In this document: positions 40,921-59,896 of the stretch, piece by piece
Layout: every line of letters starts with the position of its first letter
Position numbering within the stretch: position 1 is the first letter of the stretch
Source: Paraoerskovia marina DSM 21750
GTDB lineage: Bacteria > Actinomycetota > Actinomycetes > Actinomycetales > Cellulomonadaceae
Length of the DNA stretch: 64,000 bases
Reading direction: 5' to 3'
NCBI RefSeq assembly: GCF_000701465.1
Contig: NZ_JNIY01000009.1
Span: forward strand, 62,001 to 126,000
Position numbers and translations under genes: made by a program
Notes under the pieces: generated by a model
Told to the model about the DNA's origin: nothing
The model's database searches: none
What the model saw: only the letters and a program-made list of their open reading frames with translations

Positions 40921-42353
40921 GGAAGTGGTGTAGGGGTCCTTCGATGAGAGGGGTCAGGCTGTCAGGGCGGGCAAGGTCTCGGTGGTCACCTCATTCACGG
41001 TGCTGGTGGTGATGGTCAGACGGCAACGGGCCAGGACGTCGAGCCCGAGGTAGCGACGTCCTTCGGCCCATTCATCGGTCTGCTCGGCCAGGACCGCACC
41101 GACGAGGCGCACGATCGCGTCGCGAGAGGGAAAGATCCCGACGGAGTCCGTGCGCCGGCGGATCTCGCGGTTCAGGCGTTCGGCGGGGTTGTTCGACCAG
41201 ATCTGGACCCAGACGTCTTTGGGGAACCCGGTGAACGCGAGGACGTCAGCGCGAGCGGCATCAAGGTGCTCGGCCACGGCGGGCAGCTTCTCACCCACGT
41301 AGTCCAGCAACCGATCGACCTGCGCGGTCACCGCCGCAGCATCAGGCTGGTCATAGACACTGTGGAGCATCGCCTTCACCGCAGGCCCCATGGACTTCGG
41401 GCAGATGCTCATCAGGTTCGCGGCGTAGTGGGTGCGGCACCGCTGCCAGGACGCTCCAGGGAGGTGCGCGGCGATTGCCTCGACCAACCCAGCATGCGCA
41501 TCGGAGGTCACCAGACGGACCCCGCCGAGACCGCGGGCGACCAGGTCAGCGAAGAAACTGCTCCATGCTGCCCCGGTCTCCGAGGTGGCGACGCGCATGC
41601 CGAGCACTTCGCGGTGACCATCGCCGCTGACGCCGGTCGCGATCAGGACGACCGCGTTGATCACCCGCCCGCCTTCACGGACTTTCATCGTCAGCGCGTC
41701 CGCGGCGACGAACGTGAACGGCCCGGCAGCGTCCAGAGGCCGGTGGCGGAACTGTTCGACGTGCTCGTCGAGATCGGCTGCCATACGGCTGACCTGCGAC
41801 TTCGAGAGCGAGTTGATGCCGAGCGTCTTGACGAGCTTGGGGGTACCGCCCGCTGCGATAGTGCGCAGCACGCAGTGGGGGAGCCATGCGGCGGGTGGAG
41901 ACCCCGGCGAGGTAGCAGTCCGCGACCACGGTGATCAGCGCGGATTCGGCGCGTTTGCGGCGCTCGAGCAGCCACTCCGGAAAGTAAGTGCCCGAACGCA
42001 GCTTGGGGACGGCGACGTCGATCGTGCCGACCCGCGTGTCGAGGTCGCGGTGGCGGTAGCCATTGCGCTGGGTCGCTCGGTCGGGGCTGGGCCGGCCGTA
42101 TTCCGCGCCGGCGACCGCGTCAGCGTCCGCGGAAAGGAGCTCGTTGATGATCCGTTGCAGCATCGTGCGCATCAGATCCGGAGAGGCGTCGGCCAGGGCT
42201 TCACCGAGCAGGCCGTGAGGGTCGACAATATGAGGAGCGGTCATCGTGATGACTCCGTTCGAGAGTGCTGTGAGAGGTTCACTCGAAGGATCACACGGTG
42301 ACCGCGTCCTCGTCAGAGACGATCACGAGGCCACCGCGCTACACCACTATCGG
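40921..42353 (-). mobile_element. IS256-family insertion sequence (degenerate)
   Basis: The element is about 1.43 kb and holds one IS256-type transposase gene. Its ends share the inverted motif AGTGGTGTAG: GGAAGTGGTGTAGG at the left and, in reverse complement, GATAGTGGTGTAGC at the right. No clear target duplication is seen, so the exact ends are uncertain. The right end joins directly onto an AbiEii-like remnant, suggesting it inserted into that gene. The 266 bp on its left (40655-40920) contain no gene. Confidence 0.75.
40954..42244 (-). pseudogene. IS256-family transposase, frameshifted
   Basis: The N-terminal part (42244 down to about 41850) has MLQRIINELLSADADAVAGA, YRHRDLDTRVGTIDVAVPKL and [15 protein letters not shown]. 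The C-terminal part (from about 41830) continues with [31 protein letters not shown], the DDE-domain block [13 protein letters not shown], and [14 protein letters not shown]. They are in different frames because about 44 extra bases lie between STRRM and KLVKTL, where family members are continuous. The insertion shifts the frame, so a full-length transposase is not made. Confidence 0.75.
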
Positions 42354-42904: not shown

Positions 42905-43402
42905 TTAACGCGGGTCAATGAGTGTGGCCATCCAGTCGCCGAGTTCGACGGCTATGTCAGCGAGGTCGAGCGCCTTCCTACGGTTGACGGTCTCGCTACG
43001 ACCGTGGGCGATGCGGTTCCTTCGATCGACCATGTAGGCGAGCTCTCGACCGATCCGTGAATCGTCGTCTCCCAACAGGTGTTCAAGCTGCACAGCCCAG
43101 CCCTCATCGAAATTCCTCGTCCGCTCCACCAGAACCTCGGGCGCTGGGTTGCGTCCGCGAAACAAGCCATTGACTACGTGACGTGCAATGGCGGGATGGG
43201 ACTTGGCCTCGGCGAAGTGCTTGATGCAGGTCTCGAACGTGTTCTCGATATACCCCGCCGAGCGCACAACGAGAAAGCGTGCAAGCTCCGCCGCCACTTC
43301 GGGCGGCTCCGCCGGCAACTCGTCCAGCATCTTCCGCAGATTGACCAGGCGGGTCCGACTTGTGTCCATCTCCCGCGTCGGCCACGATCCGGGCCAACTC
43401 AT
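42905..43402 (-). CDS. HEPN-domain protein, MAE_28990-like, last gene of the BREX operon
   Basis: A 165-residue all-helical protein. The C-terminal half carries R128-N-R-I-A-H133, the Rx4H motif of HEPN ribonucleases, within YMVDRRNRIAHGRSE. The region VVRSAGYIENTFETCIKHFAE is also typical of the MAE_28990/MAE_18760 HEPN-like group, usually paired with a DUF262 protein. HEPN proteins often cut RNA in abortive defence; that activity is inferred here. Its start overlaps the DUF262 stop as ATGA; a later ATG (residue 12) is possible. The 117 bp beyond it before the att repeat hold no gene. Confidence 0.75.
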   Translation of the reverse strand: MSWPGSWPTREMDTSRTRLVNLRKMLDELPAEPPEVAAELARFLVVRSAGYIENTFETCIKHFAEAKSHPAIARHVVNGLFRGRNPAPEVLVERTRNFDEGWAVQLEHLLGDDDSRIGRELAYMVDRRNRIAHGRSETVNRRKALDLADIAVELGDWMATLIDPR

Positions 43403-44517
43403 GCTGCGTCTGCGAACGCCTCGGTTGCGAGGCGGAGACGCGTCGCCATCGGCTCCTCGTTCGCCGTCGCCCGACTGGTAGAAGCCTCGAAATCGTCACT
43501 GCCCTTGAGCCCGTCAATTGCGGCAGCAGCAGCCTCCGGCGTGATTTCAGACTGAGCGAGGTGCCGCATAAGGCCGACGTAGATTGCCTCTGCTTGTGCC
43601 GCGTTCACCTGCCTGGCACCCTTCCGCAACGCTTGCGGCCCAGGGCCAGCGAGGATAGTCGCGTTTGCTCGGGCGAACAGCTTTGAGGCTGCAATGACCT
43701 GCTCGGAGGTTGCATCACGGTGCATCCCGGCGAAGTCGTTGAGGAACTTCTTTAAAGGGCTGGCGTAGCGATCAGCGCCGCAGTACAGGGCGATTATTCG
43801 AAGAATCAATTCCTGATCACGAGCACGCGATGACTTACCGCCGTAGAGAGCGCGCCAGTTGGTGTCTTGGTTGAGCCGCTCGAGCAACTCGATCAACGGC
43901 CCCGCGTAGAGCGCTACGCGAATCTCGTGCGGGGTCAGTTGAGTACCGCCAGAGTTGAGACGCTCGAAGATCTGGTACACCGCCTCCAGACTCTGCGGGG
44001 TTCCGTCGGTGTCTACGATCGTCGCCTGGATGAACGCGTTGTCCAACGTGCGCCGCAGGTCATCGGGTAGGCTCTTGTAGGTCAGCCCCTCGAACCGCTT
44101 TGAGACGTTGGCCAGAGAGAAGACTCGCGACCCATGAGTCCCTTCGTAGAAATCTCGCAAAGTAAGCAGGCGCTGTTGCCCGTCGAGCACGAGATAGCGC
44201 CGGTCACTCTGGCGCACGAAGAACACGCCGGGTATCGGATAGCCCAAGAGCAGCGACTCGATAAATCTATCCATCTGGGACTTGCGCCAGACGAATCCTC
44301 GCTGGAATCCAGCGCTCTCGATGTCTGGATCGTTGTGGCCGAACTGCGGGACGACAATGTCTCGGTTGCGTACACGACGAACTAATCCCTCGACGTCGAA
44401 GTCCTGCCCCGCGTACTGCACAGATCGCGCTTCGGGCTCCGCCGCCGTCAGGTCGACGAACTCATCTTCAGTGAGCTCGGGGAATTCTGGTCTGTCGGCT
44501 GTCTGCTCTTCAGTCAT
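43399..44517 (-). CDS. DUF262 (GmrSD N-terminal-like) protein
   Basis: A 372-residue DUF262 protein. The diagnostic motif is LVLDGQQRLLTL (DGQQR at residues 112-116), preceded by FQRGFVWRKSQMDRFIESLL and followed by FERLNSGGTQLTPHEIR. DUF262 is a ParB/sulfiredoxin-like nucleotide-binding domain and the N-terminal half of GmrSD/BrxU type IV enzymes that hydrolyse NTP to cut modified DNA. The DUF1524 HNH nuclease that normally follows in GmrSD is not seen; instead a separate HEPN gene is coupled downstream. Its ATG overlaps the brxL stop (ATGA), so it is part of the BREX transcript. Confidence 0.85.
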   Translation of the reverse strand: MTEEQTADRPEFPELTEDEFVDLTAAEPEARSVQYAGQDFDVEGLVRRVRNRDIVVPQFGHNDPDIESAGFQRGFVWRKSQMDRFIESLLLGYPIPGVFFVRQSDRRYLVLDGQQRLLTLRDFYEGTHGSRVFSLANVSKRFEGLTYKSLPDDLRRTLDNAFIQATIVDTDGTPQSLEAVYQIFERLNSGGTQLTPHEIRVALYAGPLIELLERLNQDTNWRALYGGKSSRARDQELILRIIALYCGADRYASPLKKFLNDFAGMHRDATSEQVIAASKLFARANATILAGPGPQALRKGARQVNAAQAEAIYVGLMRHLAQSEITPEAAAAAIDGLKGSDDFEASTSRATANEEPMATRLRLATEAFADAA

Positions 44518-46724
44518 GCTCCTTGCCCTTCTGTTGCTTCGCGGGAGTCGGCAGACACCCTCACGTAGTGCACGGTGAACGATGAACCGATCAGGCGGAA
44601 CTCCTGGCGGTTGCGGCCGAAGTCGAAGGGGTTGTCGCTCGGCTTCTGCCAGATGTCGAGGCCCTTGCCGAGATCGATGCGCCAGCCATGATCGGTCTCG
44701 ATGCGGCGGTCATGGATGGTGTCATCGAGTCGTACGGCAAGTCGCACTCCCACGGCGTCGGAGGCGTCCTTGACGGCCTTCAGCATGATCAGGTGCCGCT
44801 GTTTGTACGCCGGGTTTGGTTCCTCCGCGGTGACGAGCTCGACATCGATCTCGTCAGCCGGGTCCTTCGCTGCGGCAAGAAGACTCAGCAGGTCGACGAG
44901 GTTGCGGCCCTGGTGCGGCATGCGAATGTAGGGGTCCGTGATCGCGATCCTCGATGCGCCGCGAAGGTACGGCAGGAGGAGGGTCTCGTAGGACACCCCC
45001 CGCTGGCCGGCGGTGAAGTCTCGATGCCCCTCGGCCAACGCTGAGGGCTCAGGCTTCCCGGTCGCTTCTGGTGCAGTCACCGAGGTTTCGGACGACGACG
45101 CAGCGACCGGGGCCGGAATCACCCCCGTGGCCGCACCTGGGCTTGCTTCGCCGTCACCCTCGGGCCCTGCGCCCCAGTCCCGCCGATACAGCTGCGGGTG
45201 CTGGCTCTCCTCAAGCGTCGCGACCTCGTACCACGCCCCCGACGTGTCGGAGTATCGGAAGCGAACCGGGGTTTCGCGCATGGTGGCGTCGATGCGCAGG
45301 ATTGAGTCCTTGACGCGCTTGCGCCCCTCGACCGCGAACTCCAGCAGCGTGCGGATCTCGTCCTCCGTGGCCTCACCCGTCGGGTGCACGAGCTTCATCA
45401 GCCCAGAGAAGGTCTTACGGATGCCGTCCTGGTCGCGCGTGGAGATCGAGTTGTCGAGAGTGAAGTGGTCCTTGTACTTGTCCGAGAAGTCCTCGGACCG
45501 CTTCGCCCGCAGGATCTCGGCGAGGTAGTCGACGACGAACCCGTAGCCGGCGGAGAACATCTCCGAGCGGATCGGCGCGACCTCCCAACCGGGGATGTAG
45601 TGGTGGACGCGGTCGAGCCACGCTGGGTCGCGGTAGGCGTCAGGCAGCTCGTCGAACAGGTCGGAGTTCTTGAGCATGTAGGGCACGGTGTGCGTCGTGT
45701 TGCCGATGAACGCCATCGACGCCTCGGCCCCGTAGATGCTCGTGCCGCGCGAGAACGACTTGTTCGCGAGGTAGTTCTTCATGACATTGACGAGGTTCTG
45801 GTCGGTGCGACGATTGGCGGCGAACTCGTCGAAGGCGACGCAGTCCCAGTAGCCGACCAGGCCGATTCGCCCGCTGGCGTTGTTGACGAACAGCTTGGCG
45901 ACGGTGACCTCTCCGCCGGAGACGAGGATGCCGTTCGGGGAGAACTCGCTGAAGGTGTGCGACTTGCCGGTGCCCTTGGGCCCGAGTTCGACGATGTTGT
46001 AGTTGCGCTCTACGAAGGGGATGAGACGCGTCAAGGCGATGAGCTTGCCGCGCTTGTTGAACTGCTCGGGGTTGAGGCCGATCGACTGCATGAGCAGGTC
46101 GATCCACTCCTCGGTCGTGAACGCCTTGCGTGCCTCGTAGTAGTGGTCGATGTCGATGCCAGCGACCTGGATGGGCTTGAGACTGCCGAGGATCCACGGT
46201 ACGACGCGCTGATCGTCAGAGTGGAAGTACTCGATGTCGCAGATGCACCAGACGCCGCCGACGAGAAGCTTGGGGTTCTGCTTGACCGTCACGTCATCGA
46301 TGACGACGCCGCTGACCTGGAGGTTCTCAAACTCAGCCTCATGGACGTCGTTCTTCTCATTGAGCGTGACGGTGACCTTGTCGATCACACGGTGGCGCCC
46401 CTTGCGACGGATCTCCGACTTCACGAGCATGTGCTCGTTGCGGTTGACGTAGTGGGTCGCGAGGATCTGCCGCACGCTGTCGATCCCGACCTGGATCGTG
46501 GCCTCGTCGTCGGATGCGGCGTACTGGCCCAACAGGTACTCCAGTACGTACGAGGGCACGACGGCGTTGCCGCGGACCGCTTTGACGAGGTCCTTGCGGA
46601 CGACGGCGCCGGCGAAGTGCTCGTTGATCTTGTCGTTGAGCGCAGACTTCGTCGGGGCGGCGTCGGTCGTCTCCGCGGCGGCGAGGAAGTCGATCTCGCC
46701 GAGGGCGTCTTCAAGGTTGGTCAT
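44514..46724 (-). CDS. brxL: BREX system AAA+ protein BrxL with MITD1-like C-terminal domain
   Basis: A 736-residue protein. Residues 1-510 match the BrxL N-terminal and AAA+ regions: Walker A GPKGTGKSHTF (248-258), acidic CVAFDEFA (296-303) and sensor-like FIGNTTHTVPYML. After an Ala/Ser/Pro linker (about 515-565), residues 575-722 have TDPYIRMPHQGRN, IDVELVTAEE and IHDRRIETDHGWRIDLGKGL, the pattern of the MITD1 C-terminal phospholipase-D-like domain. No Lon Ser-Lys protease site is recognisable. BrxL is a ring-forming DNA-binding component needed in type 1 and 4 BREX. It lies 7 bp after pglZ. Confidence 0.9.
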   Translation of the reverse strand: MTNLEDALGEIDFLAAAETTDAAPTKSALNDKINEHFAGAVVRKDLVKAVRGNAVVPSYVLEYLLGQYAASDDEATIQVGIDSVRQILATHYVNRNEHMLVKSEIRRKGRHRVIDKVTVTLNEKNDVHEAEFENLQVSGVVIDDVTVKQNPKLLVGGVWCICDIEYFHSDDQRVVPWILGSLKPIQVAGIDIDHYYEARKAFTTEEWIDLLMQSIGLNPEQFNKRGKLIALTRLIPFVERNYNIVELGPKGTGKSHTFSEFSPNGILVSGGEVTVAKLFVNNASGRIGLVGYWDCVAFDEFAANRRTDQNLVNVMKNYLANKSFSRGTSIYGAEASMAFIGNTTHTVPYMLKNSDLFDELPDAYRDPAWLDRVHHYIPGWEVAPIRSEMFSAGYGFVVDYLAEILRAKRSEDFSDKYKDHFTLDNSISTRDQDGIRKTFSGLMKLVHPTGEATEDEIRTLLEFAVEGRKRVKDSILRIDATMRETPVRFRYSDTSGAWYEVATLEESQHPQLYRRDWGAGPEGDGEASPGAATGVIPAPVAASSSETSVTAPEATGKPEPSALAEGHRDFTAGQRGVSYETLLLPYLRGASRIAITDPYIRMPHQGRNLVDLLSLLAAAKDPADEIDVELVTAEEPNPAYKQRHLIMLKAVKDASDAVGVRLAVRLDDTIHDRRIETDHGWRIDLGKGLDIWQKPSDNPFDFGRNRQEFRLIGSSFTVHYVRVSADSREATEGQGA

Positions 46725-46731
46725 GGCTGTC

Positions 46732-49224
46732 CTAGAAGTCGAAGTCCGTCGTGAACGACCGCTTGATGGTGTAGTTCCCCTTCGAGAACGACTTCCACTG
46801 CGTCGTGTTCGGGATCGGCTCTTCGAGCCGCAGCTCGACGGACCGGTTGTTGTACTGGTCGGCGTCCTGGGTCAGGTACAGCACGGCCTTCTGATAGCGG
46901 TCGCGCTGGTCATCGGATGCGCTGTCGAAGGTAAGGACGGGCTGGTCGGAGATCAGCGTGTCGCCGACGTAGAGGCCGAGCCGCACCTGGCGCGCCTGGA
47001 TCTTGTCGGTGACCGCCTCGCGCTGAAGTAGCTTGACGGCGAGCTGCCCGGTGGTGATCTTGTCGGTCTCGGGCATGAGGTCGACACCTACCGGTCGGAT
47101 GTCGCTCTTGCGCTTCTTGTTGACCGCGATCACCGGCACGACTATCTCCTGGAGCGAAGCGCCACCGTGCACGTAGCGGGTGCCAGGGCCGGGTAGCGGG
47201 ATGCGGTGGATCGACTTGGGGATCTGGATGTCGATGTCTCCCGCGAGCCCTGCCTGGGCGGAGGTGAACGTCATGAAGGAGGGCGACGGCTTCAGCGACC
47301 GGCCGAGCACGAAGCGGCGGTTGGTCTTGGTGACCGCGTCACCATGCGGGCTCTCCGAGAGGTAGTAGGCCTGCTCCAGCGGAGTGTCTTGGAATTGGAA
47401 CCCGTGGTCGGCGGTGATGAGGATGTTCGTCGCGTTGGCGTTGGTCCACTTCTTCACCAGGAGCAGCAGCTCGCGAAGGGTCTCCTCGGCAGCCTCGAAG
47501 ACGGTCCGCTCGGTCGGGGCCTTGTCGCCCGCGGCGTCGATCCGGTCGTGATAGACGTAGAAGACCTGGTGCTTCGTGTACAGCTCGCGAAGTTCGCTCC
47601 CCGGCATGGCCAGCACCTCGGCCGCGCTCATGGCATGCCCCTTGACCGCTTGCAGGATCTTGCCGCGGTTCGCGGTGCCGTTCGTCGGCTTCCCGTCCGC
47701 GAGCACCGGGAGGCCGTCCGGGTCGAGTTCCAAGCTGGAGTGCGGCAGCAGCGACGCCATGCCAAGTTGGGTGTAGCTCGGCAGCGAGCCGAGCACAGCG
47801 GAGAGCGAGGCATCGAAGCGGTCCTCGCCGCGGATCATCGACGCGAGTTGCTCGGCGATCTCATACCGCATGCCGTCGGAGATGATCACGACCACCTTGG
47901 TGCGACCGTCCTTGACGACGGGGGCGACGTGACGGTCGAAGAACCTCGCCTGCGGCGCGAGCGTCTCAGACTTCCACTCGCTCATGGGTTCAAGGGCCTG
48001 CTGCCAGAGCCCGCCGAAGTCGTAGAGGTACTTGTTGGTGTACTGCTTGTCGACCTCGGCCTTTAGCGCTTCGAGCGGCTTGTGGAAGTCGGCGGTCTGG
48101 TGCGCGTACGTGAACCAGCGGTAGTGCTGGTCGATGCGGAACCAGTCCGACTGGTACTTTTCCAACCCAACCGTGGCTGAGGCGATGGCGTGCGGCAACG
48201 CAGCGAGAGCCGCGAGCAGCTCCGAGGCGCTCTGGATCGCGTCGTAGAGCTTGGCGTACTTGGCGCTCCACAGGCTGTGCTGACGCTGCCGAACGATGTC
48301 CGCGACCTCACGGGGCGTCACCGACTGGGTGGTGACGGCGGCAGCTAGGTCGACGATGACCTTGCGGTCGACCTCCTCGAAGATCGTGCTCTTGGCCAGT
48401 TCGCGGTAGTCGCGCTGGTCGATCTTCGAGTTCACGTCGAGCGCGTCGGCCGCACGGGACGCGAGGGTCGTCATCACGTACTGCGTGCGCACGTCGTAGC
48501 GCAGGGCGTTGAAGTCACTGCGGATGTTGCGGAACTCGTCGGGCGCGTCCGAGGCGAAGTCTTCGATGGCGCGGCCGAACATCCACAGCACGAAGTCGTC
48601 CATGGTCGGGGTCGCGCTCGGGTAACTGTAGATGCTGGCGAGCCCGTCCCAGAAGAACTGGTCGAGGCCGAAGGCGACGAGGTCGTCGAACTTGGCGCTC
48701 TTCCCGGCGGCATTCTCGACGAGGAGTTCGCGGACGATGTCGGTCAGCTTGTTCCCTGAAGCCTTGACGAGCACCTGGCACATCTTGGCGCGAAGGCGTG
48801 CGGCGTCGTCTCCGTCGGTGAGGAGCTTCTCCAGCGCCTGCTTGCGGCTGTTCGCGGCAAAGAACTTCTGGTGCCGCTCGATGACCGGCAGCAGGGCTGA
48901 GTCGTTGAGGCCAAGCTCCTGTTGCAACATCGAGGTCTTGTCGGCTGTGAAGACGCCGTACGCGAGTTCGAGGTCGAGCAGCCAGTTTCCGGTGCCGCGC
49001 GAGACGTCGCCGGCTCGGTAGACGAGGTGCTTGTTGACGTGGTCGGCGATGATCGTGTTCTTTGCGCCGAGCTCGTTGCCCTTAACGCGGATGACGTTGA
49101 CCGCGCCAAGGTCGAGCGCGTCGAGGTCGGCGGCGTACTCACCAGTGGGGTCATTCCAAAACACGACACGCTCGGACGCCAGACGGCCTCGGAGCGCCTC
49201 CTGGACGGCGGTCAGATCAGTCAC
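46732..49224 (-). CDS. pglZ: BREX-1 system phosphatase PglZ
   Basis: An 830-residue type 1 PglZ. The N-terminal part begins TDLTAVQEALRGRLASERVV with FWNDPTGEY. The alkaline-phosphatase-fold domain has VVVIISDGMRYEIAEQL (residues 444-460) with the metal-binding Asp, and ILITADHGFQF later supplies His/Asp ligands. PglZ is thought to be a nuclease/phosphatase-like partner of PglX in BREX. The GTG at 49224 is chosen because it begins the conserved sequence and overlaps the pglX stop by 8 bp; the open frame extends 24 codons further. Confidence 0.92.
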   Translation of the reverse strand: MTDLTAVQEALRGRLASERVVFWNDPTGEYAADLDALDLGAVNVIRVKGNELGAKNTIIADHVNKHLVYRAGDVSRGTGNWLLDLELAYGVFTADKTSMLQQELGLNDSALLPVIERHQKFFAANSRKQALEKLLTDGDDAARLRAKMCQVLVKASGNKLTDIVRELLVENAAGKSAKFDDLVAFGLDQFFWDGLASIYSYPSATPTMDDFVLWMFGRAIEDFASDAPDEFRNIRSDFNALRYDVRTQYVMTTLASRAADALDVNSKIDQRDYRELAKSTIFEEVDRKVIVDLAAAVTTQSVTPREVADIVRQRQHSLWSAKYAKLYDAIQSASELLAALAALPHAIASATVGLEKYQSDWFRIDQHYRWFTYAHQTADFHKPLEALKAEVDKQYTNKYLYDFGGLWQQALEPMSEWKSETLAPQARFFDRHVAPVVKDGRTKVVVIISDGMRYEIAEQLASMIRGEDRFDASLSAVLGSLPSYTQLGMASLLPHSSLELDPDGLPVLADGKPTNGTANRGKILQAVKGHAMSAAEVLAMPGSELRELYTKHQVFYVYHDRIDAAGDKAPTERTVFEAAEETLRELLLLVKKWTNANATNILITADHGFQFQDTPLEQAYYLSESPHGDAVTKTNRRFVLGRSLKPSPSFMTFTSAQAGLAGDIDIQIPKSIHRIPLPGPGTRYVHGGASLQEIVVPVIAVNKKRKSDIRPVGVDLMPETDKITTGQLAVKLLQREAVTDKIQARQVRLGLYVGDTLISDQPVLTFDSASDDQRDRYQKAVLYLTQDADQYNNRSVELRLEEPIPNTTQWKSFSKGNYTIKRSFTTDFDF

Positions 49225-52200
49225 TGGCCGCCTCCAAACCCGGAACCTTCTTGAGGGCAGCACCGAACTTCGGGTAGTTCGCTTTGACCCCGTCACCGAG
49301 TGCGATCGCCACGTTCTCGGACGCCTTAGGGTAGAGGATATCGTGCTCGTACCCCTTCAACTCGAGGAGTACCTTGCGGAGCCGGTCCGCTTCTTTGGCG
49401 TTCCCCACACGCTCAACTTGCTGCAGGGTCGACTCCAACTTGGTCACGTACTCACGCAGGTAGGACAGGACCGTCGAGACCGTCGTCGGCGAGTACCGAT
49501 GCATGTATACCAGCGCGCTAAAAGAACCGCTCGGGCTGGAAAACAACCAGTAGATCGGGCGCCGCCTATACCGCTGGACGTGGTCCTTGTAGAAGGACTT
49601 CACGAAGTAGGTGCGCAGGTTCTTCACTCCGAGCGACTCAGTCACGAACCGCAGGTTGGCCTCAAAGTACTCGTCGCCAAACGCTGCGCGGAGGAACTGC
49701 CGGAATCGATCGACGATGTCATCCTCGAACCAGTCACCGTCGACAACGGGGATGACGTTGTCAGCGTCCGGCACGAAGCTTGGCGTCGGAACCTTTTGAA
49801 GGTATTCCTGCAATGTCATCCCCTGATCCGCGACGATCAGACCGGGTTCATCGAGGCTGTACCGGCCGAACATGCAGCCAACTGCGACGGACACAAGCTC
49901 AGATGCCAACGATGCTGCTGAGGGTGTGTCAAGAGTTACCTCGTCGACGTGCACCTCTTCCTGAGCTTCACCATCCAAGCGGAAGAGTGCATTGAACTCC
50001 GCGTTGTTGGCAGTCTCAGCCGCGGCCATCGCTTTAATGTCCTGAGCTACCTGATCAACCACCGCCTGGGCGCCGGCCGCAACGGCGCCCGAAGCTGCCC
50101 TCGTGGCAGCAAGAACGTCCAATTCACGGAATCCTATCGCAGTCTCACGACGCTCCCAGTTTCGCCTCGCGATCTCGATGCAGTGTTCAGCACGCCTGGC
50201 TACTCTCAATCTCTCCGTGGGATTGCGCCATGGCAGCACCGAGACGTACCCCGTATTGGCGTGCATTCCTGGGGCCACGGCTTTGATGTAGAGGTCAGCC
50301 ACCGACGAGTTGAGGTAGGCAAGAAACGTGAGGAGGTCGTCATAATCGTCGCTAGGGCTGAAAAGGCTCATCGATACAACATCAAACATGGTGCCGGTAT
50401 CACGCAGTCGTGCGCCAAGAACGGGCTGTCCGATATCAGACCACTCTACTGCTGGCCGTCCGTAGTACCTCTGATTCTGTGGACGAGCCCGCAATTTGCC
50501 CGCAGCATCACGGTTGCTCTTGATGTCTGCGCCGTCCTGCGCCCAATCAACGACCATTTCCATGTTGCCAAACCACTTGCGGAACGGGCCGCCCTTGCTA
50601 TACGGCAACCACCGAGCCTCGTCACTGTCAGACCGACTCATCTGTGTGGTCGCGTAGGAGACCTCCCACCAATAGCGGAGAAAGCGGTCATTGTCACCAG
50701 TTTGCAGACCGACGCGAGCATCAGCTACGGAGGAAATGGGGTCATCGTGGCTGAGATGGTGAGCCTGCTTTGGAGTAAGCCAGTATGCGATCACCGAATT
50801 CGGGAAGGACTTGAACTCGGAGGATGCGATCCGCGAAAGCAGCCCCGTCTCCCGCGCCCGCCGAAACTCGCGTGACATTGCGGATTCCCCGTGTTCCTCC
50901 ATTCGGTGGAATGCGCCGACGGTCGAGCGCAAACCCCCGCGAGAGGTAATGAATGCGCACGTGTTAACGACCTCTCCGCCGAATGAATCGAAGGCACCCG
51001 TGCCGAGTCCAATCATTGCGACGAGCGTGCTTGTTTCGAGCAGTGAGGAACGGAACTTGCCGAAGGTTGTCTGGAATGTCCAGGACTGCATCGTGATCAT
51101 CGCAACGAAGCCGCGTGGAACCAGTTCGTGACAGCGCTCGATGAAAGCGGAGTATAGGTCCGACTTTGCCTCCGGGAACCTACGAGCGATGTACTCAGCC
51201 AGGGGTCCGCCCATGTTCTTGCTGCCCATGTACGGAGGATTCGCGATCGCGACTGCATACTTAGGCGTCAAGTAGGATGCTTGGCGAACTACTCGGTTGG
51301 CTCGTGCAACAATGTCCGATTGCAGGAGATCGTCGCCGGCGCCGAGTACTCCAAGGTGCCGTGCAAGCCGGTCCGCCTGCCCCGTTGGCGGATTGACCAA
51401 GGACCCGCAGGTGTCTGCCTTAGAAAACAGGTTCCAGAACGCTTCTTCTGCACCACGGTCCCCACCGAGGCTGAGAAGGAAGTCCAGTTCGTCAGCGCTG
51501 AATGAAACTGGCTCGATCACGCAGACGTGCGGCTCGACCGCGTCCTTCAAGAAGCGCTTGCGCCTCGAGGTGGCCTTCATCGTCAAAGCGAAGGCAGCCA
51601 GCGCACCGGCGCGCGGGTCGATCTCGGTGCCATAGAGGTTGTTCGTGAGGATGAGGCTAGGGATCTCGGACGGCGTGTATCCCTCCTCCTCATAGATCGC
51701 GTACAGGAGGTCGAAGGCGTACGTGAGCATGTGGCCCGACCCGCACGCCGGGTCGATCACGTTCAGCTCCTCTGGCGTGGAGATCTCCAGAATATCGGGC
51801 TCCTCGTCGACCGGAGCGATGTAGTAGTCCATCTGGTCGACGAGCCGGGACTCGGGGTGGTTGAGCATCCACAGTCGACCGAGGGAGTTCTCAACGAGGT
51901 ATCGGACGATCCAGTGTGGGGTGAACAATTGTGTGGCGGCGGGGATCTCATCGGCGCCGGCCTTCTTGTTCTTCTTGAACCCGGCGAACACCTCGTCTTT
52001 CCGCTCCGAAATGTAGAACTGGTAAAGCCAGCCAATGACCTCGACGTCCTGGCACACTTCTTCAGAGAGCACCTTGACGGACCGGCTGAGGGCGGACTCC
52101 TCGGCGAGCAGGTTCGCGGGGATTAGCAGTTCCGTGTAGCCACCCTCGCGCTCGAACATGAACGGCATCGCCTGGTTCCAGTAGCGACAGTAATCCGCGA

Positions 52201-52651
52201 GCAGCAGCGCGTATGCCTCGGTCTGGGCATCGCCCCCCGATCGCGGGGGCCGGGTGCCGTCCAGTAGCCCCGTGATGATGGCCACGTTCGCGCCCCTCAC
52301 CACATCGCCATCGATCTGGCCGCGCTTGGCCGAGGCGAGCACCTCGGGCTGGCCGACTTGATCTGCGGCCGGCGAAACAACTCCGAGGTCGGTGTAGCCG
52401 TTGGCGTCCATGAAGCGTAGGGCGATGATTCGGTTGAACCAGATGTAGGCGACCTTGTCGGTCACATAAGCCTTGCCTGAGAAATCACCGCCCTGGGCGG
52501 CGATAGCCCGCTCCAGCGCGGTCACAGCGCGGGGCTGCTCAACACGCTCAGGCGAGCCCGGTGCAAGAACTGCAGCAATGCGCGCACCAACCTCACGGAT
52601 TAGCTCCGTACGCGCCGAGATGGCGAAAGACTTCAGCGGTGCGGTATCCAT
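49217..52651 (-). CDS. pglX: BREX-1 system adenine-specific DNA methyltransferase PglX
   Basis: A 1144-residue N6-adenine methyltransferase. Motif I is DPACGSGHML (residues 300-309) and motif IV is NPPY (471-474). TQLFTPHWIVRYLVENSLGR before motif I is typical of PglX. The long C-terminal half holds the specificity and partner-binding region. PglX methylates host BREX sites so that self DNA is spared. The site recognised here is unknown. The frame is intact, with no internal stop or homopolymer switch noticed. Its ATG overlaps the brxC stop by one base (TGATG). Confidence 0.93.
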   Translation of the reverse strand: MDTAPLKSFAISARTELIREVGARIAAVLAPGSPERVEQPRAVTALERAIAAQGGDFSGKAYVTDKVAYIWFNRIIALRFMDANGYTDLGVVSPAADQVGQPEVLASAKRGQIDGDVVRGANVAIITGLLDGTRPPRSGGDAQTEAYALLLADYCRYWNQAMPFMFEREGGYTELLIPANLLAEESALSRSVKVLSEEVCQDVEVIGWLYQFYISERKDEVFAGFKKNKKAGADEIPAATQLFTPHWIVRYLVENSLGRLWMLNHPESRLVDQMDYYIAPVDEEPDILEISTPEELNVIDPACGSGHMLTYAFDLLYAIYEEEGYTPSEIPSLILTNNLYGTEIDPRAGALAAFALTMKATSRRKRFLKDAVEPHVCVIEPVSFSADELDFLLSLGGDRGAEEAFWNLFSKADTCGSLVNPPTGQADRLARHLGVLGAGDDLLQSDIVARANRVVRQASYLTPKYAVAIANPPYMGSKNMGGPLAEYIARRFPEAKSDLYSAFIERCHELVPRGFVAMITMQSWTFQTTFGKFRSSLLETSTLVAMIGLGTGAFDSFGGEVVNTCAFITSRGGLRSTVGAFHRMEEHGESAMSREFRRARETGLLSRIASSEFKSFPNSVIAYWLTPKQAHHLSHDDPISSVADARVGLQTGDNDRFLRYWWEVSYATTQMSRSDSDEARWLPYSKGGPFRKWFGNMEMVVDWAQDGADIKSNRDAAGKLRARPQNQRYYGRPAVEWSDIGQPVLGARLRDTGTMFDVVSMSLFSPSDDYDDLLTFLAYLNSSVADLYIKAVAPGMHANTGYVSVLPWRNPTERLRVARRAEHCIEIARRNWERRETAIGFRELDVLAATRAASGAVAAGAQAVVDQVAQDIKAMAAAETANNAEFNALFRLDGEAQEEVHVDEVTLDTPSAASLASELVSVAVGCMFGRYSLDEPGLIVADQGMTLQEYLQKVPTPSFVPDADNVIPVVDGDWFEDDIVDRFRQFLRAAFGDEYFEANLRFVTESLGVKNLRTYFVKSFYKDHVQRYRRRPIYWLFSSPSGSFSALVYMHRYSPTTVSTVLSYLREYVTKLESTLQQVERVGNAKEADRLRKVLLELKGYEHDILYPKASENVAIALGDGVKANYPKFGAALKKVPGLEAASD

Positions 52652-55600
52652 CAGAGCGTGATTCGCTTTCCATCGTTTAGGGTCTCGACGAGCGCGGCGC
52701 GGTACGTGGCAAGGTAGGTGTCAACGTCGGCTTCCGATTCAATGACACCCGACGCGCCAGGCACGTTGATCGACTTTATCGAGACCACGGGCTTCGGCGG
52801 CTGGCTGTCGTTGGCCCCCCGCTGCTGCGACTCGACTAGTTGGCTTAGCAGAGAGGGGTAGCCATCGTGTTCGAAGCTCGCTCCCACCTGGAGAATGAGC
52901 GGCGCTTGAATCTCGCCTTCAAGTCGTTCAAGAATGCGATCGACGTACTCGAGCACGCTAGCCCGCGTGTCAGGAGTGGCGTCGGCGTAGTAGGCACTTC
53001 CGAGGATCTCGGTCTTGCGGCCCTCGATCGCCGCGGACACGTCCGCGCGCTTGTTGGCGACAATGTTTTCAATCTGACCGCGCAAGCTGTCCGCGGCGGC
53101 TTTGAGCTGATTCATCTTGTTGCCACGGAAGGCATTGGGGTCAGTGAGCAGCGACGTAACTGTGTCGGCGCTTCCTACGGGGAGGTAGGCGATGTTTTCG
53201 GCGTTTTTGCTCAGGACGGTCTGCGCTTCATCAAAGATTCTGGCCTGCTGGCCGTTGACGAATGACTTGACGGGGTCGATCAGGTCTTCCTTGGCCTCAA
53301 GCAACTCATCAGCCTTATCGAACTCGCTCAGGTACCAGTCAGGCTGCTTGCCCACGGCCTCGTCGAGCAGCGCGACTACATCGGACAACTGGACGACAAA
53401 CGGGTACCGACTGCTACTTACGAGGCCTGCGAGCTCTTCACGCCTAGCCCTGAGCTTGTCTTTGCCGAACTGGGCAAGTTCGGCGGGGTCGTTCGGCACG
53501 GCGCCCTCGTCGAAGAAGTCTGTGCAGAACTTTTTGAACGCAGCGACTTTGACTTGGTTGTATGTCTTCTGCGGTGCGACAATAACGTATTGGTGCTTGC
53601 CCGTATTGCGGATCAGGTTTGCTGCCTCGGTGCGGGTGACCGCGTTGGAATCGACGTTCAGCGCCACCTTGCCCTGGCCGACGAGCCACCCGAGCACGAC
53701 TTCGATGGAACCGAGATCCCAACCGTAGGGCTTGGTCTCGAAGTGTTCGACAATCTTCTTGATCGTCACTTGCTCGCCCAGTCCCGTCTGAGTGATGATC
53801 CTGGCCTCCATCTCCGTGCCAGGTGAGTTCAGCGTGCTCAAGATCGCCGTGTCAACTAGACCTTGTTCGCTTCTCACGACACTCGCGACCTGCTGCTCCG
53901 AGAACACCTTTCCGCCGAGTAGGCCGAGGTTCGTGTAGGTACGGCTCACGAGCTCCTGAAACCCGTCGGCGACGCGCCCAATGGCGTCTTGCGAGCCGGA
54001 GGCAACCTCGGCAGCGTTGATGATCAGCTGTGCCTTGCCGACAGCCTGACGGAGACGCTCGATCATCTCCTTCTCGCGGTCGGCGTTGAGCACCTGCTTG
54101 GACTGAAGAATGGCCTGCATCGAGGCTGTAGCGCCAGAGTTGGTGCGTTGCTTCGTGTACTTCTCTGTCTTGAGCAGCAGGCGCAGGTCGGCGAGCAACC
54201 GCTTGTCACGACCGAGGAATACGCGCAGCTCGTCTCGGCCCATGCTCTGCGCCTTGATCTCGGCGTCGGTGTAACTGGTCTCGGAGGTGATGAAGTGGAT
54301 GGTCAAATCGCGCTGGTTCCCCTGCACGGTGTCGTCGAGTTTATAGCCGAACGCGAAGTCCTGGCCATTCTTTACGTACTTGAGTTTGTTGGTCTTGAGG
54401 ATGTCGGATGATAGGTACCGGAAGAGCTTGTTGGAGACCTCGGAGGAGTCGATGTCGACCGCCTTGATCTCCTTTTCGATCTCCTGCTCCTCGTTGGTGA
54501 GGTACTCGTAAACGTTGCCGTTGCGCTGGACGTACGACTGCGTCTCCAGCAGGTTGAGCGCCTCCTGCACCTGCTTGCCCAACCCGGTGAGGTCGAGGCC
54601 AAAGCGGTCGTAGACGAGCACGGTGAGGTTGCGTGGCGTGGCCTTGAAGGTGTCGACGTACTTGACCAGGAAGAGCGCCTTCAGGAGGCGATTGGCGAGG
54701 ACTGTAATGTCCGAGCCGTTGTCGGGGAGGTGCTTCTCGGCCTGGAGGATGGCACTCTGCGCCGCCGACTTCAGGGCAGCGCTGATGCCCGAGAACATCT
54801 GGTCGAACGTAGCCAGGTAGCCCACCTGCTCGCCGCCGATCCGCTTGGCGACCTCCTGAACCACGCCTAGCATGGAGCGCTCGCCTACCGAGCTGTTCTT
54901 GCCCTCGAACATGTTGTGGTCGGACAGGCCTTCGATCGCGGCCTGGAACATCGGGATCTGGTAGGTGACGAAGGGGTAGGTATTGATGAAGCGGCCTTCG
55001 TCCACGTAGTTGCGGTAAGTCTTCGCACCGTCGACGAAGTTAAAGATTGTCGGGAAGTTCGCCGCCTGCGTGGAGTGGATCGTCTTGAGCACGCCGGCGC
55101 CCGCATCATTCTTCTCCAGCAGACGCTTGCTGATGACCTCTTCGACGTCCTGGCTGGTTAACTTCACCTTGGCACTGAAACGAGCCTGGATCTTGGAGAA
55201 GTCATTGCCCTGCTGTCGCGTGCGGTCGCCGATGACCTTGTCCATGTCCTCCTGCGAGGTGACGAAAACCCACGAGCGTCCCTCGCTCTTGGTGTTGAGG
55301 GACTCGGCAATCGTCTGGAGGTTAAGCATCAGTTTGACGTCGTCGGCGATGAACTGGCCGACCTCGTCGACGAAGAAGTTGAGACGGAAGCCGGGCTCCT
55401 GCTTGTCGATCCATGCCTTGACAGACGTGGCGAAGTCTTCGATCGAGACCGCATAGGACTTCTGGTACTGGGCGATGATGCCGGGGTTCGCCTCGCCGTT
55501 GACCTGGGCGAACGCCCTGTCGATGTTGTGGCCCTCCAGCGCGGTCTGCTCGCGACCCTGGGACCAATCGATGCCGGCGTGCCTGGCGAATGCCTCCTTG

Positions 55601-56133
55601 AAGGACTCGTACTGGCCGCGCTTGTCGAGGTCCTCCTCGAAGCGGGCGACCGCGCCGTCGTTGCCGAAGTAGCCACGGCTCTCATCGAACACCTTGACGA
55701 ACACCTTGAGCAGGGCGTCAGTCTGGTCCTTGGCAATCAGGGTCGCCTTCTGGTCGATGTTGAACAGCAGGCTCTTGGCCGGGATCGCGGCTGCTTTCTT
55801 CAGCGACGCGACCAGGAACGCGTCGCTGGTTTTGCCGAGGAAGCTCTCGCTCACCTTCTCGCGCGGGAACGCTTGGCCCTCGACGTCGCCGAGTAGGTGG
55901 GCGAGCATCTTAAGCAGGTGGGACTTGCCAGAGCCGAAGAATCCCGAGATCCACACGCCGTTGGCGTTGGTGTAATTCGTGTACTCCTCCAGCAGCGGCG
56001 CGACACCCTTCGCGGCGTCATTGGTAAAGACGTACTCCTCGACCTCGGTGCCCACGTGGTCGACGTCGTCGGCCTTGACGACGCCCTCGATCGAGCGGGC
56101 GACGTCTTTGAGGAAGATCTCGTTGAGTTTCAT
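52651..56133 (-). CDS. brxC: BREX system P-loop protein BrxC
   Basis: A 1160-residue ATPase. Walker A is GFFGSGKSH (residues 64-72) within VWISGFFGSGKSHLLKMLAH, and Walker B-like FFVDEVGQFIADD lies near residue 265. The remainder is largely helical with several possible coiled coils. BrxC/PglY is an essential BREX ATPase of unclear mechanism, probably assembling with BrxB, PglX and PglZ. It is 4 bp after brxB and overlaps pglX by one base. No frame damage is seen. Confidence 0.93.
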   Translation of the reverse strand: MKLNEIFLKDVARSIEGVVKADDVDHVGTEVEEYVFTNDAAKGVAPLLEEYTNYTNANGVWISGFFGSGKSHLLKMLAHLLGDVEGQAFPREKVSESFLGKTSDAFLVASLKKAAAIPAKSLLFNIDQKATLIAKDQTDALLKVFVKVFDESRGYFGNDGAVARFEEDLDKRGQYESFKEAFARHAGIDWSQGREQTALEGHNIDRAFAQVNGEANPGIIAQYQKSYAVSIEDFATSVKAWIDKQEPGFRLNFFVDEVGQFIADDVKLMLNLQTIAESLNTKSEGRSWVFVTSQEDMDKVIGDRTRQQGNDFSKIQARFSAKVKLTSQDVEEVISKRLLEKNDAGAGVLKTIHSTQAANFPTIFNFVDGAKTYRNYVDEGRFINTYPFVTYQIPMFQAAIEGLSDHNMFEGKNSSVGERSMLGVVQEVAKRIGGEQVGYLATFDQMFSGISAALKSAAQSAILQAEKHLPDNGSDITVLANRLLKALFLVKYVDTFKATPRNLTVLVYDRFGLDLTGLGKQVQEALNLLETQSYVQRNGNVYEYLTNEEQEIEKEIKAVDIDSSEVSNKLFRYLSSDILKTNKLKYVKNGQDFAFGYKLDDTVQGNQRDLTIHFITSETSYTDAEIKAQSMGRDELRVFLGRDKRLLADLRLLLKTEKYTKQRTNSGATASMQAILQSKQVLNADREKEMIERLRQAVGKAQLIINAAEVASGSQDAIGRVADGFQELVSRTYTNLGLLGGKVFSEQQVASVVRSEQGLVDTAILSTLNSPGTEMEARIITQTGLGEQVTIKKIVEHFETKPYGWDLGSIEVVLGWLVGQGKVALNVDSNAVTRTEAANLIRNTGKHQYVIVAPQKTYNQVKVAAFKKFCTDFFDEGAVPNDPAELAQFGKDKLRARREELAGLVSSSRYPFVVQLSDVVALLDEAVGKQPDWYLSEFDKADELLEAKEDLIDPVKSFVNGQQARIFDEAQTVLSKNAENIAYLPVGSADTVTSLLTDPNAFRGNKMNQLKAAADSLRGQIENIVANKRADVSAAIEGRKTEILGSAYYADATPDTRASVLEYVDRILERLEGEIQAPLILQVGASFEHDGYPSLLSQLVESQQRGANDSQPPKPVVSIKSINVPGASGVIESEADVDTYLATYRAALVETLNDGKRITL

Positions 56134-56137
56134 CGGG

Positions 56138-56749
56138 TCATGCTTCCTGGTCGAGGATGCGCTTCGCGCGGTAAAATGAGTCGTCTTTGAGTTGGCCGAA
56201 TAGCACGAGCGCCGAGCCCTGCGTGGCCGACACCTCGTACCGTCCCGGGAAGAACATCAGCATCGGCGTGTCCGATACGGCGGTCTGCAGGTTGTTCAGC
56301 ACCGTGTGTGAACGCACAAACGGGAACACCTCGCCGACACCGGTGAGGAAGAGGATCTGGAAGGATTTGCCTGCGGTGCGTTCCTTGATGGCCGGGGCCA
56401 GGTGCATCTGCGGGTCGAGCATGTTCTGGAGCATCTTGAGGAAGTCGGGCTTGTCCATCGTCGGCTCGGCGGCGAGAACCCGTTCCCAGACATTGCGTGC
56501 CTTGAGCAGTTCGATACACAGGTCGTAGAGGTTGATCTCGACGACCTTGATGCCCAGCTCGGTGTCGAGCTTGGTCTTGATGCGCTTCTTCGCCTGGGCG
56601 ACGTCGAGTGCCCATGCAGGATCGTAGTCGTAGATGAAGTGAGCGACCTCGTTGCCGAGGCCCTCCATCTTCAGGAAGCGCTCGCTGCTGAGCACGTTGA
56701 ACAGGTGCGCTTCTTGCTGAGCCAGCGTGGGCTTGGGGTGCAGGGGCAT
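56138..56749 (-). CDS. brxB: BREX-1 system protein BrxB (DUF1788)
   Basis: A 203-residue DUF1788 protein. Recognisable blocks are FIYDYDPAWALDVAQAKKRI, KVVEINLYDLCIELL and ILFLTGVGEVFPFVRSHTVL followed by PMLMFFPGRY. BrxB is a small conserved BREX subunit thought to bridge PglZ and BrxC. The ATG at 56749 overlaps the brxA stop (TGATG). A larger open frame upstream is brxA read out of frame and is not used. Confidence 0.9.
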   Translation of the reverse strand: MPLHPKPTLAQQEAHLFNVLSSERFLKMEGLGNEVAHFIYDYDPAWALDVAQAKKRIKTKLDTELGIKVVEINLYDLCIELLKARNVWERVLAAEPTMDKPDFLKMLQNMLDPQMHLAPAIKERTAGKSFQILFLTGVGEVFPFVRSHTVLNNLQTAVSDTPMLMFFPGRYEVSATQGSALVLFGQLKDDSFYRAKRILDQEA

Positions 56750-57348
56750 CAGACCCCCCTCGTCGGGAAAAAGCGGATGTCGCTCGGCGTGCGCTCCGTG
56801 AGGTACTCGGCGACGCGGGCGGAGATGAGGGCGGGCTCGATTGCGCCCTTGGCCGTCAGCAGACCTGCCTCGACCATCATCCTGAAGAGCACCTGCCTGA
56901 GCTTCTTGTAGGTGGCGGCCGACGTGGCGTCGAGTTCGTCGTGCCACATCGCCTTGGCGCGGTAGAACGAGTCGTAGTCCGCGTAGGAGACCGTGCCCGC
57001 CAGGGTGAGGAACCTCTCGCGGAGGACTTCCTCGGCGAACTCCCCGATGAAGTCGTATCGACGGCAGGCGGCAGCCCACATCAAGTGACCGCGTTCCGTA
57101 GTGGTGACATCGGTGAGGATCTCAACCTCGCGATCCGTGAGTGCCGACATCCGCTTGACCGTCTCGCGTACGCGGCGGACGCCCGTGCTGCGGGTTCGAC
57201 TCTGAAGGAGATTCTGGGCGACGGCGACGTCACGGACGTTCGCCCAGTCGCGATGCTCGATGTGCACAGGGGCCAAAACCGCGGCCTCCTGCTCGAGCAG
57301 GCCGCCGGTCGTGAACGACAGCGCGTAGCGCTCACAACGATCGTTCAT
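56749..57348 (-). CDS. brxA: BREX-1 system protein BrxA (DUF1819)
   Basis: A 199-residue DUF1819 protein from the ATG at 57348. It contains RYALSFTTGGLLEQEAAVLA, LLQSRTRSTGVRRVRET and the C-terminal DIRFFP typical of the family. BrxA is a small DNA-binding type BREX subunit. An in-frame GTG at 57420 overlaps the original stop of the HTH gene (GTGA), so a 24-codon longer start coupled to that gene is possible; family similarity favours 57348. First of the six core BREX genes. Confidence 0.88.
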   Translation of the reverse strand: MNDRCERYALSFTTGGLLEQEAAVLAPVHIEHRDWANVRDVAVAQNLLQSRTRSTGVRRVRETVKRMSALTDREVEILTDVTTTERGHLMWAAACRRYDFIGEFAEEVLRERFLTLAGTVSYADYDSFYRAKAMWHDELDATSAATYKKLRQVLFRMMVEAGLLTAKGAIEPALISARVAEYLTERTPSDIRFFPTRGV

Positions 57349-57467
57349 CAAGGCGGGCCTCCGTCCAGAGTCAGGCAGGTCGAGCAATGTACTGCGGAGC
57401 ACTGACAACGGTGGTCTCACCCCTCGCCGGAGGACTCATTCCATGCTGCAGCGCTGCCGCTGCGAAT

Positions 57468-58385: not shown

Positions 58386-59327
58386 CTACTTTGTGCTTTC
58401 GATCTGGACGATCCACTCGTTGACCGTCGCGACCGCCTCGTCCAGCGACATCGACAGCCCGGCGTCGTGGGCCGCCGCCGCGTAGTCGCGCACCCAGTGG
58501 TCGTGAGGGCTCATCAGCGGCGGCCATGAGCGCTCAGGGCGGCCGAGTTCCCGGGCATCCTGAGCGCGCGCTTCGCAGACGGCGACTGCTGCCGTACGGA
58601 TGTCGTTCAGGGTCGGTTGTCCCTCCGCCTCGATCAGCGACCGCAGCAGCACGAGGTCGACGACGTCGCGAGGGCGGTCGTTGATACTCGTCGGGGGATC
58701 ATGGGGGTCCGAGGCCGCGTGGATCTTCTGTGCGACCTGGAACCGCATCGCGATCGTGACGAGGGTGTCCGGCGTAGGCAGGCCGAAGGGTTCGAGGCGA
58801 GGCGCAGGAATCGTCTCCGGCGTGGCACCCGCGCCACCCTCGTCCGGCGCGATCTCGACCTGGACCTTGCGCCAGATCTGACCCTTGAGGCTGACGAACA
58901 CCTGGAAGCGCCGGGGCTGGATGACTCGGGTCGGCGTCTGGATGACCTCGACCTCCGACCGAGTGAGGGTCAGCGGGCCTCATTGCTCGGCGAAAGCGTC
59001 GTCGAGCGCGATGATGAAGTCGTCGATGTCACCGCGCACGAGTCCGTCGAGGTCGCTGGTGGCGCGTGCTGTATTGCCGAGCCGATGCTGAAGGTACGTC
59101 CCACCCTTGAGCAGGAAGCGGGGCGTGCCGCCGTCGCTCGCGCGTTGGAGCGCGGCGATCACGACGGTAGAGGCTACGAGCCACCCCATGCGTCCACCGG
59201 CTGCAGGCACGTCGAGCGCCTTCTCCGCGTGGGTGACCCACTGCGCCAGGATCGACGCGCTGGCCGGCGGCTTCGCCTTGGGCTTGAGGTCGGCGAGCGT
59301 CTTCTCGGCCGGACGAGACTCGGCCAT
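58386..59327 (-). pseudogene. abiEii: AbiEii-type nucleotidyltransferase toxin, interrupted by TGA
   Basis: The frame from 59327 to 58386 (314 codons) encodes an AbiEii/AbiGii nucleotidyltransferase. The active-site part FLLKGGTYLQHRLGNTARAT then SDLDGLVRGDID is present. An in-frame TGA at 58980-58982 (codon 116) follows FAEQ, where relatives have Trp before GPLTL. After it the same frame resumes with GPLTLTRSEVEVIQTPTR, FVSLKGQIWRKVQVEI and an intact C-terminal half. A single TGG-to-TGA change would explain it. AbiEii toxins transfer nucleotides to targets such as tRNA. The start overlaps the antitoxin stop (TGATG). Confidence 0.85.
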
Positions 59328-59896
59328 CAGCGATCCTCCAGAAGTTGGGTCAGGCGGGCGACGTCGTCGCGACGGACCGCGCTGGTCCGCTCTCCGCGTT
59401 CGATGGCTTGGCGCAGCAGGTAGCTCGGCGTGCCGCCGGCGGTGCACTGTTCGATCGCTGTCGTCGCGGTGACGATACGCATGAGGTTCCACCAACCGAG
59501 CTGATCTGGCTTCAGCTCGTCGACGTGGACGACGAAAGCGTCGTTGTCGGACCGCCTGATGCGCCGCGCCGTGGGAACGGTGACGTGGTACCGCGCAGGG
59601 TTGATGTCGCTGATCTCGTGGAGCGCGAGGGCCGTCTCGTGGCTCAACGCAGCGTCCGGGTCGCCGGTGCGGAGCAGCGCGACCTGGAACTGTTCGTGCT
59701 CGATGCCCGGCAGGTACGGGACGCGGTAGATCCCACGAGCCACCGGGAGCAGCCCGCCGTGGGCAACGAGATTGTCGACCGCTCCCGCCGTGAGGTCCAG
59801 ATCATGAATGGCCTGCTGGCGGGTGACGAGGCCGTTCTGACCCTCCGCGAGGGCGCGCAAGGCATCTCTCGCGAGAGTTCCACCTGGACCCGGCAT
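59327..59896 (-). CDS. abiEi: AbiEi-type antitoxin
   Basis: A 189-residue AbiEi-family antitoxin. The N-terminal winged helix is DALRALAEGQNGLVTRQQAI followed by VARGIYRVPYLP. The C-terminal domain has ALSHETALALHEISDINPAR and TTAIEQCTAGGTPSYLLRQA. AbiEi represses its own operon and neutralises AbiEii. The gene is intact although its toxin partner is broken. It starts at ATG 59896 and overlaps abiEii by one base. Confidence 0.88.
   Translation of the reverse strand: MPGPGGTLARDALRALAEGQNGLVTRQQAIHDLDLTAGAVDNLVAHGGLLPVARGIYRVPYLPGIEHEQFQVALLRTGDPDAALSHETALALHEISDINPARYHVTVPTARRIRRSDNDAFVVHVDELKPDQLGWWNLMRIVTATTAIEQCTAGGTPSYLLRQAIERGERTSAVRRDDVARLTQLLEDR

Follow-up and report, generated by a model that had tools for sequence, protein, structure and literature searches.

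The window analyzed here, a 64,000-nucleotide stretch of the genome of Paraoerskovia marina DSM 21750, carries a BREX-1 operon followed at its 3' end by a gene for a DUF262 protein and a gene for a HEPN protein. The initial annotation took this pair to stand in place of BrxU, a BREX-associated DUF262 protein, and to act with BREX as its backup. The locus thus raises the question of whether the two genes are a part of BREX, or whether they form a system of their own that has come to reside in a BREX operon.

Organization of the locus

The complete BREX-1 gene set is present in order on the minus strand, and comprises brxA (56749-57432; PF08849, 2.3e-49), an intact brxB (56138-56749; PF08747, 5.4e-40), brxC (52651-56133), the BREX-1 methyltransferase gene pglX (49217-52651; NF033452, E=0), pglZ of BREX-1 type A (46732-49296; TIGR02687, 4.6e-206), and brxL (44514-46724; PF13337, PF20442, and PF16565). 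The assignment of brxC is based on its position, its size, and its similarity to the genes found at the BrxC position of related BREX loci, and an annotated brxC occupies the equivalent position in plasmid BREX-1 loci. The brxL product ends in a C-terminal phospholipase-D-like (HKD/MIT_C) domain, a type of BrxL tail already catalogued in type-1 BREX (PMC12839542).

On the same strand, brxL is followed by the DUF262 gene (43399-44517), encoding a 372-aa GmrSD_N protein of the ParB/Srx type that is a putative sensor or regulator, and by the HEPN gene (42905-43402), encoding a 165-aa protein of the RiboL-PSP type that is a putative RNase effector; the initial annotation had placed both genes at exactly these positions. 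Each of the two genes starts in an ATGA stop/start overlap, as had also been claimed: the first joins brxL to the DUF262 gene (44514-44517, minus strand; junction AAGGAGCATGACTG, with AAGGAG preceding it) and the second joins the DUF262 gene to the HEPN gene (43399-43402, minus strand; junction GCAGCATGAGTTGG). The pair is thus translationally coupled to the BREX-1 operon, but it is not "fused" to it, a wording that has to be abandoned. The overlaps further suggest that the pair is co-transcribed with BREX; scans for promoters and terminators gave no signal above chance. The GC content at third codon positions (GC3) was considered as a mark of recent capture, with values of 0.71-0.74 for the pair against 0.88-0.89 for brxL and pglZ, and was rejected because pglX (0.73) resembles the pair in this respect.

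Upstream of brxA there are an AbiEi-like antitoxin gene (59327-59896) and a match to AbiEii (58386-58901) that is restricted to the C-terminal portion of the profile, which makes the region look like a defense island. About 1 kb past the HEPN gene there is a Mutator-family transposase (40954-41871), probably truncated, as its match is likewise confined to the C-terminal portion of the profile.

The DUF262 and HEPN proteins

The DUF262 protein matches Pfam PF03235 (GmrSD_N/DUF262) with an E-value of 1.1e-27 and carries the DGQQR motif at residues 112-116, where D112, G113, Q115, and R116 are invariant in a 52-row alignment. No HNH or DUF1524 domain was matched in Pfam searches of the protein, in agreement with the first description of the gene as lacking the HNH half. 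Its AlphaFold2 model (pLDDT 89.4) has a helical C-terminal half, and a fold search with this model places BrxU (7p9k) and SspE (6jiv) nearest, followed by ParB and sulfiredoxin (Srx). In GmrSD, BrxU, and SspE the DUF262 domain is described as a nucleotide-binding fold, and the modeled structure is consistent with the NTPase-like sensor type that had been proposed for this protein.

The HEPN protein is recognized by Pfam PF18735 (RiboL-PSP-HEPN) at 3.2e-10, above the cut-off, and its active-site motif RNRIAH (R128-N-R-I-A-H133) fits the Rx4-6H pattern and contains the Rx4H reported initially. Across a 52-row HEPN alignment H133 is invariant, and R128 and E53 are nearly so, these positions being kept although identity to the window protein is mostly 11-30%. 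The AlphaFold2 model is all-helical (pLDDT 94.5), and in the fold search MntA-HepT and other HEPN proteins rank first, with weak matches (best E 0.24). With its catalytic motif intact, the protein is predicted to be of the RNase type, as had been suggested. The PADLOC models for PD-T4-2_B gave no match to it at E<=10, and among the 52 HEPN relatives one of these models matches seven proteins and the other only one; by these sequence criteria the window HEPN is a diverged member of its kind.

Distribution of DUF262-HEPN pairs

A single-protein HEPN scan of the genome contigs found nothing, and the DUF262 alignment served as the query in its place. Plasmid searches recovered pairs in Arthrobacter, Kocuria, Rhodococcus, Hymenobacter, Phaeobacter, Salmonella, and E. 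coli, none of them with BREX genes in the annotated flanks, and scans of genomes and viral contigs added 160 further loci, which are spread over many phyla and include one from an archaeon. Altogether 124 adjacent DUF262-HEPN pairs were found, of which 105 are non-redundant (below 80% identity), all of them outside the window's genome. Gene order and strand are identical throughout these 105 pairs, which are found on plasmids, prophages, chromosomes, and viral contigs, and the commonest spacings between stop and start are -4, seen in 28 pairs, and -1, seen in 15. The DUF262 partner carries DGQQR in 86 of the 105, with DGxQR in most others, and Rx4H is present in 103 of the 105 HEPN partners; PF18735 matches 51 of 52 HEPN rows and GmrSD_N all 52 DUF262 partners. 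Since so many other adjacent pairs exist with conserved motifs, the arrangement in the window is not a chance neighborhood.

The distance matrices of the two proteins are correlated over 65 pairs (r = 0.68, a value to which shared species history contributes), with a permutation maximum of 0.15 and none of 2000 permutations reaching the observed value. This comparison of sequences supports the co-inheritance of the two genes as a two-protein unit, as the initial annotation had envisaged. A regulator gene that precedes and is coupled to a HEPN gene, and that occurs on plasmids and viral contigs, would also be found in an ordinary toxin-antitoxin addiction pair, in which a HEPN toxin and a DUF262 antitoxin stabilize the island without any phage-specific sensor. 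We hold this to be quite improbable, as the DUF262 protein has a nucleotide-binding fold with a conserved nucleotide motif, and the related system PD-T4-2 is a proven phage defense that its authors did not count among the toxin-antitoxin-like systems.

Some loci depart from the common arrangement. Five DUF262 genes score highly and are followed by ample sequence, yet gave no HEPN match, and none of the three forward frames after them holds an intact HEPN gene. One DUF262 gene without a HEPN match, on the A. baumannii plasmid pAB1 (L017:3677-4807), is followed in the next frame by the start of a helical-looking protein and, in another frame, by RTTLAH, so that a frame-shifted or different HEPN partner is possible there. 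In a second group of pairs, coming mostly from viral contigs (L144, L150, L158, and L162), DGQQR is replaced by DGVQR or DGLQR and the HEPN protein is longer (about 215-235 aa).

The same survey bears on the origin of the DUF262 protein. It is tempting to regard it as a type IV restriction enzyme of the BrxU type in which a recruited HEPN protein has taken over from a lost HNH domain, given that the DUF262 fold is common to both and that BrxU is BREX-associated. However, the relatives closest to the window protein, with 51-62% identity, belong to stand-alone DUF262-HEPN pairs, its similarity to BrxU spans about 54 residues (4e-13), and none of the 52 members of the family has an HNH or DUF1524 domain. 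Descent from BrxU was rejected on these grounds and is, in our opinion, extremely unlikely; the claim that the pair replaces BrxU is not supported, the pair belonging to a separate and widespread family.

Association with BREX

The pair loci were searched with the BREX proteins of the window and then with profiles built from BREX loci. In both searches BrxL, PglZ, and BrxC found no match in any of the 105 pair loci outside the window's genome, of which 76 extend 3 kb or more upstream of the pair and 61 do so on both sides; as a control, the BrxL profile matches 42 of 42 BREX loci. PglX-profile matches in six pair loci are weak (30-45 bits) and were read as ordinary methyltransferases. Among 397 genomes of the phylum, the DUF262 family is present in 13 (counted at E<=1e-25, true pairs being only a part of these) and BrxL in 24, and among 222 genomes of the family in three and nine, respectively; in both sets the two occur together only in the window's genome, small counts that are compatible with a weak association. 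Conversely, the pair was found in none of about 30 other BREX loci inspected, several of which end at contig ends.

These results weigh against the proposal of a dedicated BREX-1 accessory, according to which the pair would serve as a backup effector, recognize modified DNA or anti-BREX proteins, and function only together with BREX or on account of it. The translational coupling to brxL of an intact BREX-1 operon is in its favor, as are the recurrence of HEPN and other nuclease backup effectors beside BREX cores (PMC12839542) and the precedent of BrxU, also a DUF262 protein, which complements BREX against modified phages. Nevertheless, BREX is found at no other pair locus even where the upstream sequence is at hand, the DUF262 family and BrxL meet in a single genome of each set, and the related PD-T4-2 works alone (PMC9519451), which makes a dedicated accessory unlikely. 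The outcome that the initial annotation had named as refuting, a pair that lives mostly outside BREX and does not co-occur with it, was thus obtained as far as the link to BREX is concerned.

Because widespread pairs exist without BREX and no other BREX locus inspected has the pair, the latter is neither a BrxU derivative nor a BREX component. Judged by its relatives, the pair is autonomous, a module that one BREX operon happens to carry; the genes themselves are ordinary, and only their place is unusual. Thus, rather than a BrxU whose nuclease was swapped for an RNase, the simpler account is that a widespread DUF262-HEPN module rode into a BREX operon.

Genes next to brxL in related operons

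Other modules are found at or near the same spot in related BREX-1 operons. In G007 (L208:4005-7470, minus strand), a SIR2 and a HerA gene follow straight after brxL, with an ATGA overlap at both junctions; the BREX survey of 2026 (PMC12839542) makes no mention of SIR2 in its main text. A protein kinase (PD-T4-6/mad6-like) lies 1 nt after brxL in G596 (L207:6993-8231, minus strand), a GNAT acetyltransferase 7 nt after it in G605 (L214:11853-12359), and a 575-aa protein of unknown type, with no Pfam match, 12 nt after it in G041 (L234:11023-12750), while in G031 (L210:6376-9423, plus strand) a UG5-nitrilase-type reverse transcriptase (PADLOC 1.3e-265) is inserted between pglZ and brxL. The BREX-1 operons of G007, G596, and G031 come from the same family as that of the window, and that of G041 from the same order. 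Most of the remaining brxL genes, four plasmid-borne ones among them, have no coupled gene downstream.

In view of these modules, the brxL end looks like a swappable accessory slot, which is the best reading of the sister operons. A more far-reaching proposal, which we put forward as a tentative and rather doubtful one, is that brxL of this actinobacterial BREX-1 lineage offers a plug-in site at its 3' end, where unrelated anti-phage modules such as DUF262-HEPN, SIR2-HerA, or a kinase are acquired in translational coupling, so that BREX and a suicide module would be co-dosed, the latter answering phages that defeat BREX. The sister operons suggest in this way a testable rule for how BREX operons gain backup systems.

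Proposed mechanism

Altogether, we consider it likely that the pair is an autonomous anti-phage DUF262-HEPN module of the PD-T4-2 kind, and that a BREX-1 operon has acquired it at its 3' end, where it is translated along with the BREX genes; the DUF262 protein would act as the sensor that controls a HEPN RNase. According to this model, the DUF262 protein, with its predicted ParB/Srx-type NTP-binding fold and with C-terminal helices replacing the HNH nuclease, would bind the HEPN protein and keep it silent. A phage-borne cue would then alter the nucleotide state or the shape of the DUF262 protein, and the HEPN dimer, thereby freed or activated, would cut RNA, leading to abortive infection or to a direct block. 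The NTPase step is proposed from the conserved motif and by analogy with BrxU and SspE, and modified DNA or anti-BREX proteins are guesses as triggers. The place at the end of the operon would give the pair the BREX promoter and a fixed dose, but not necessarily a mechanism in common; BREX probably supplies expression more than mechanism. The DUF262-HEPN module is widespread and largely uncharacterized; with 105 pairs of fixed order and conserved motifs at hand, the sensor-RNase mechanism is easily testable.

Comparison with known systems

By PADLOC, the DUF262 protein scores best with NsnA (3.5e-55, residues 27-369), one of the Nsn models (NsnABC) that we take to represent Menshen. Membership in this system, considered on account of that score, was rejected: the operon neighbors of the window protein are BREX and HEPN genes, with the HEPN gene in place of NsnB and NsnC, and NsnC is absent from the whole genome. 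With BrxU the window protein shares the DUF262 fold, the DGQQR motif, and the tie to a BREX-1 operon; unlike this GmrSD-family type IV protein, it is without the HNH half, has a separate HEPN protein, and belongs to another DUF262 lineage.

The system that the pair resembles in kind is PD-T4-2, listed with DUF262 and HEPN PF18735 components (PMC10952713), which protects E. coli ECOR65 from T4 and whose deletion restores T4 plaquing (Vassallo et al. 2022, PMC9519451). Like PD-T4-2, the window pair has two components, a DUF262 protein whose homology to PD-T4-2_A extends through most of the sequence (3.8e-44; residues 70-368 of 372 aligned with 57-361 of 363) and an adjoining PF18735 HEPN protein. 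It differs in its place within an actinobacterial BREX-1 operon and in its HEPN protein, which is too diverged to be detected by the PD-T4-2_B models; the pair is therefore filed as being of the PD-T4-2 kind and not as PD-T4-2 proper. The RiboL-PSP-HEPN family was also listed as "in operon with ParB" by Anantharaman et al. (2013, PMC3710099), an entry that agrees with the window pair in HEPN Pfam family and in type of partner, DUF262 being classed there as ParB; the available text of that work describes the operon association only, and not a BREX context. The combination of DUF262 and HEPN was thus already known. HEPN RNases are catalogued beside BREX cores in the 2026 NAR survey (PMC12839542), and the DUF262-HEPN pair is not described in its main text. 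Since the pair is of a known kind and not specific to BREX, most of the novelty claimed for it is gone, and the interest that remains lies in its coupled position and in the suggestion that the end of brxL may be a swappable slot.
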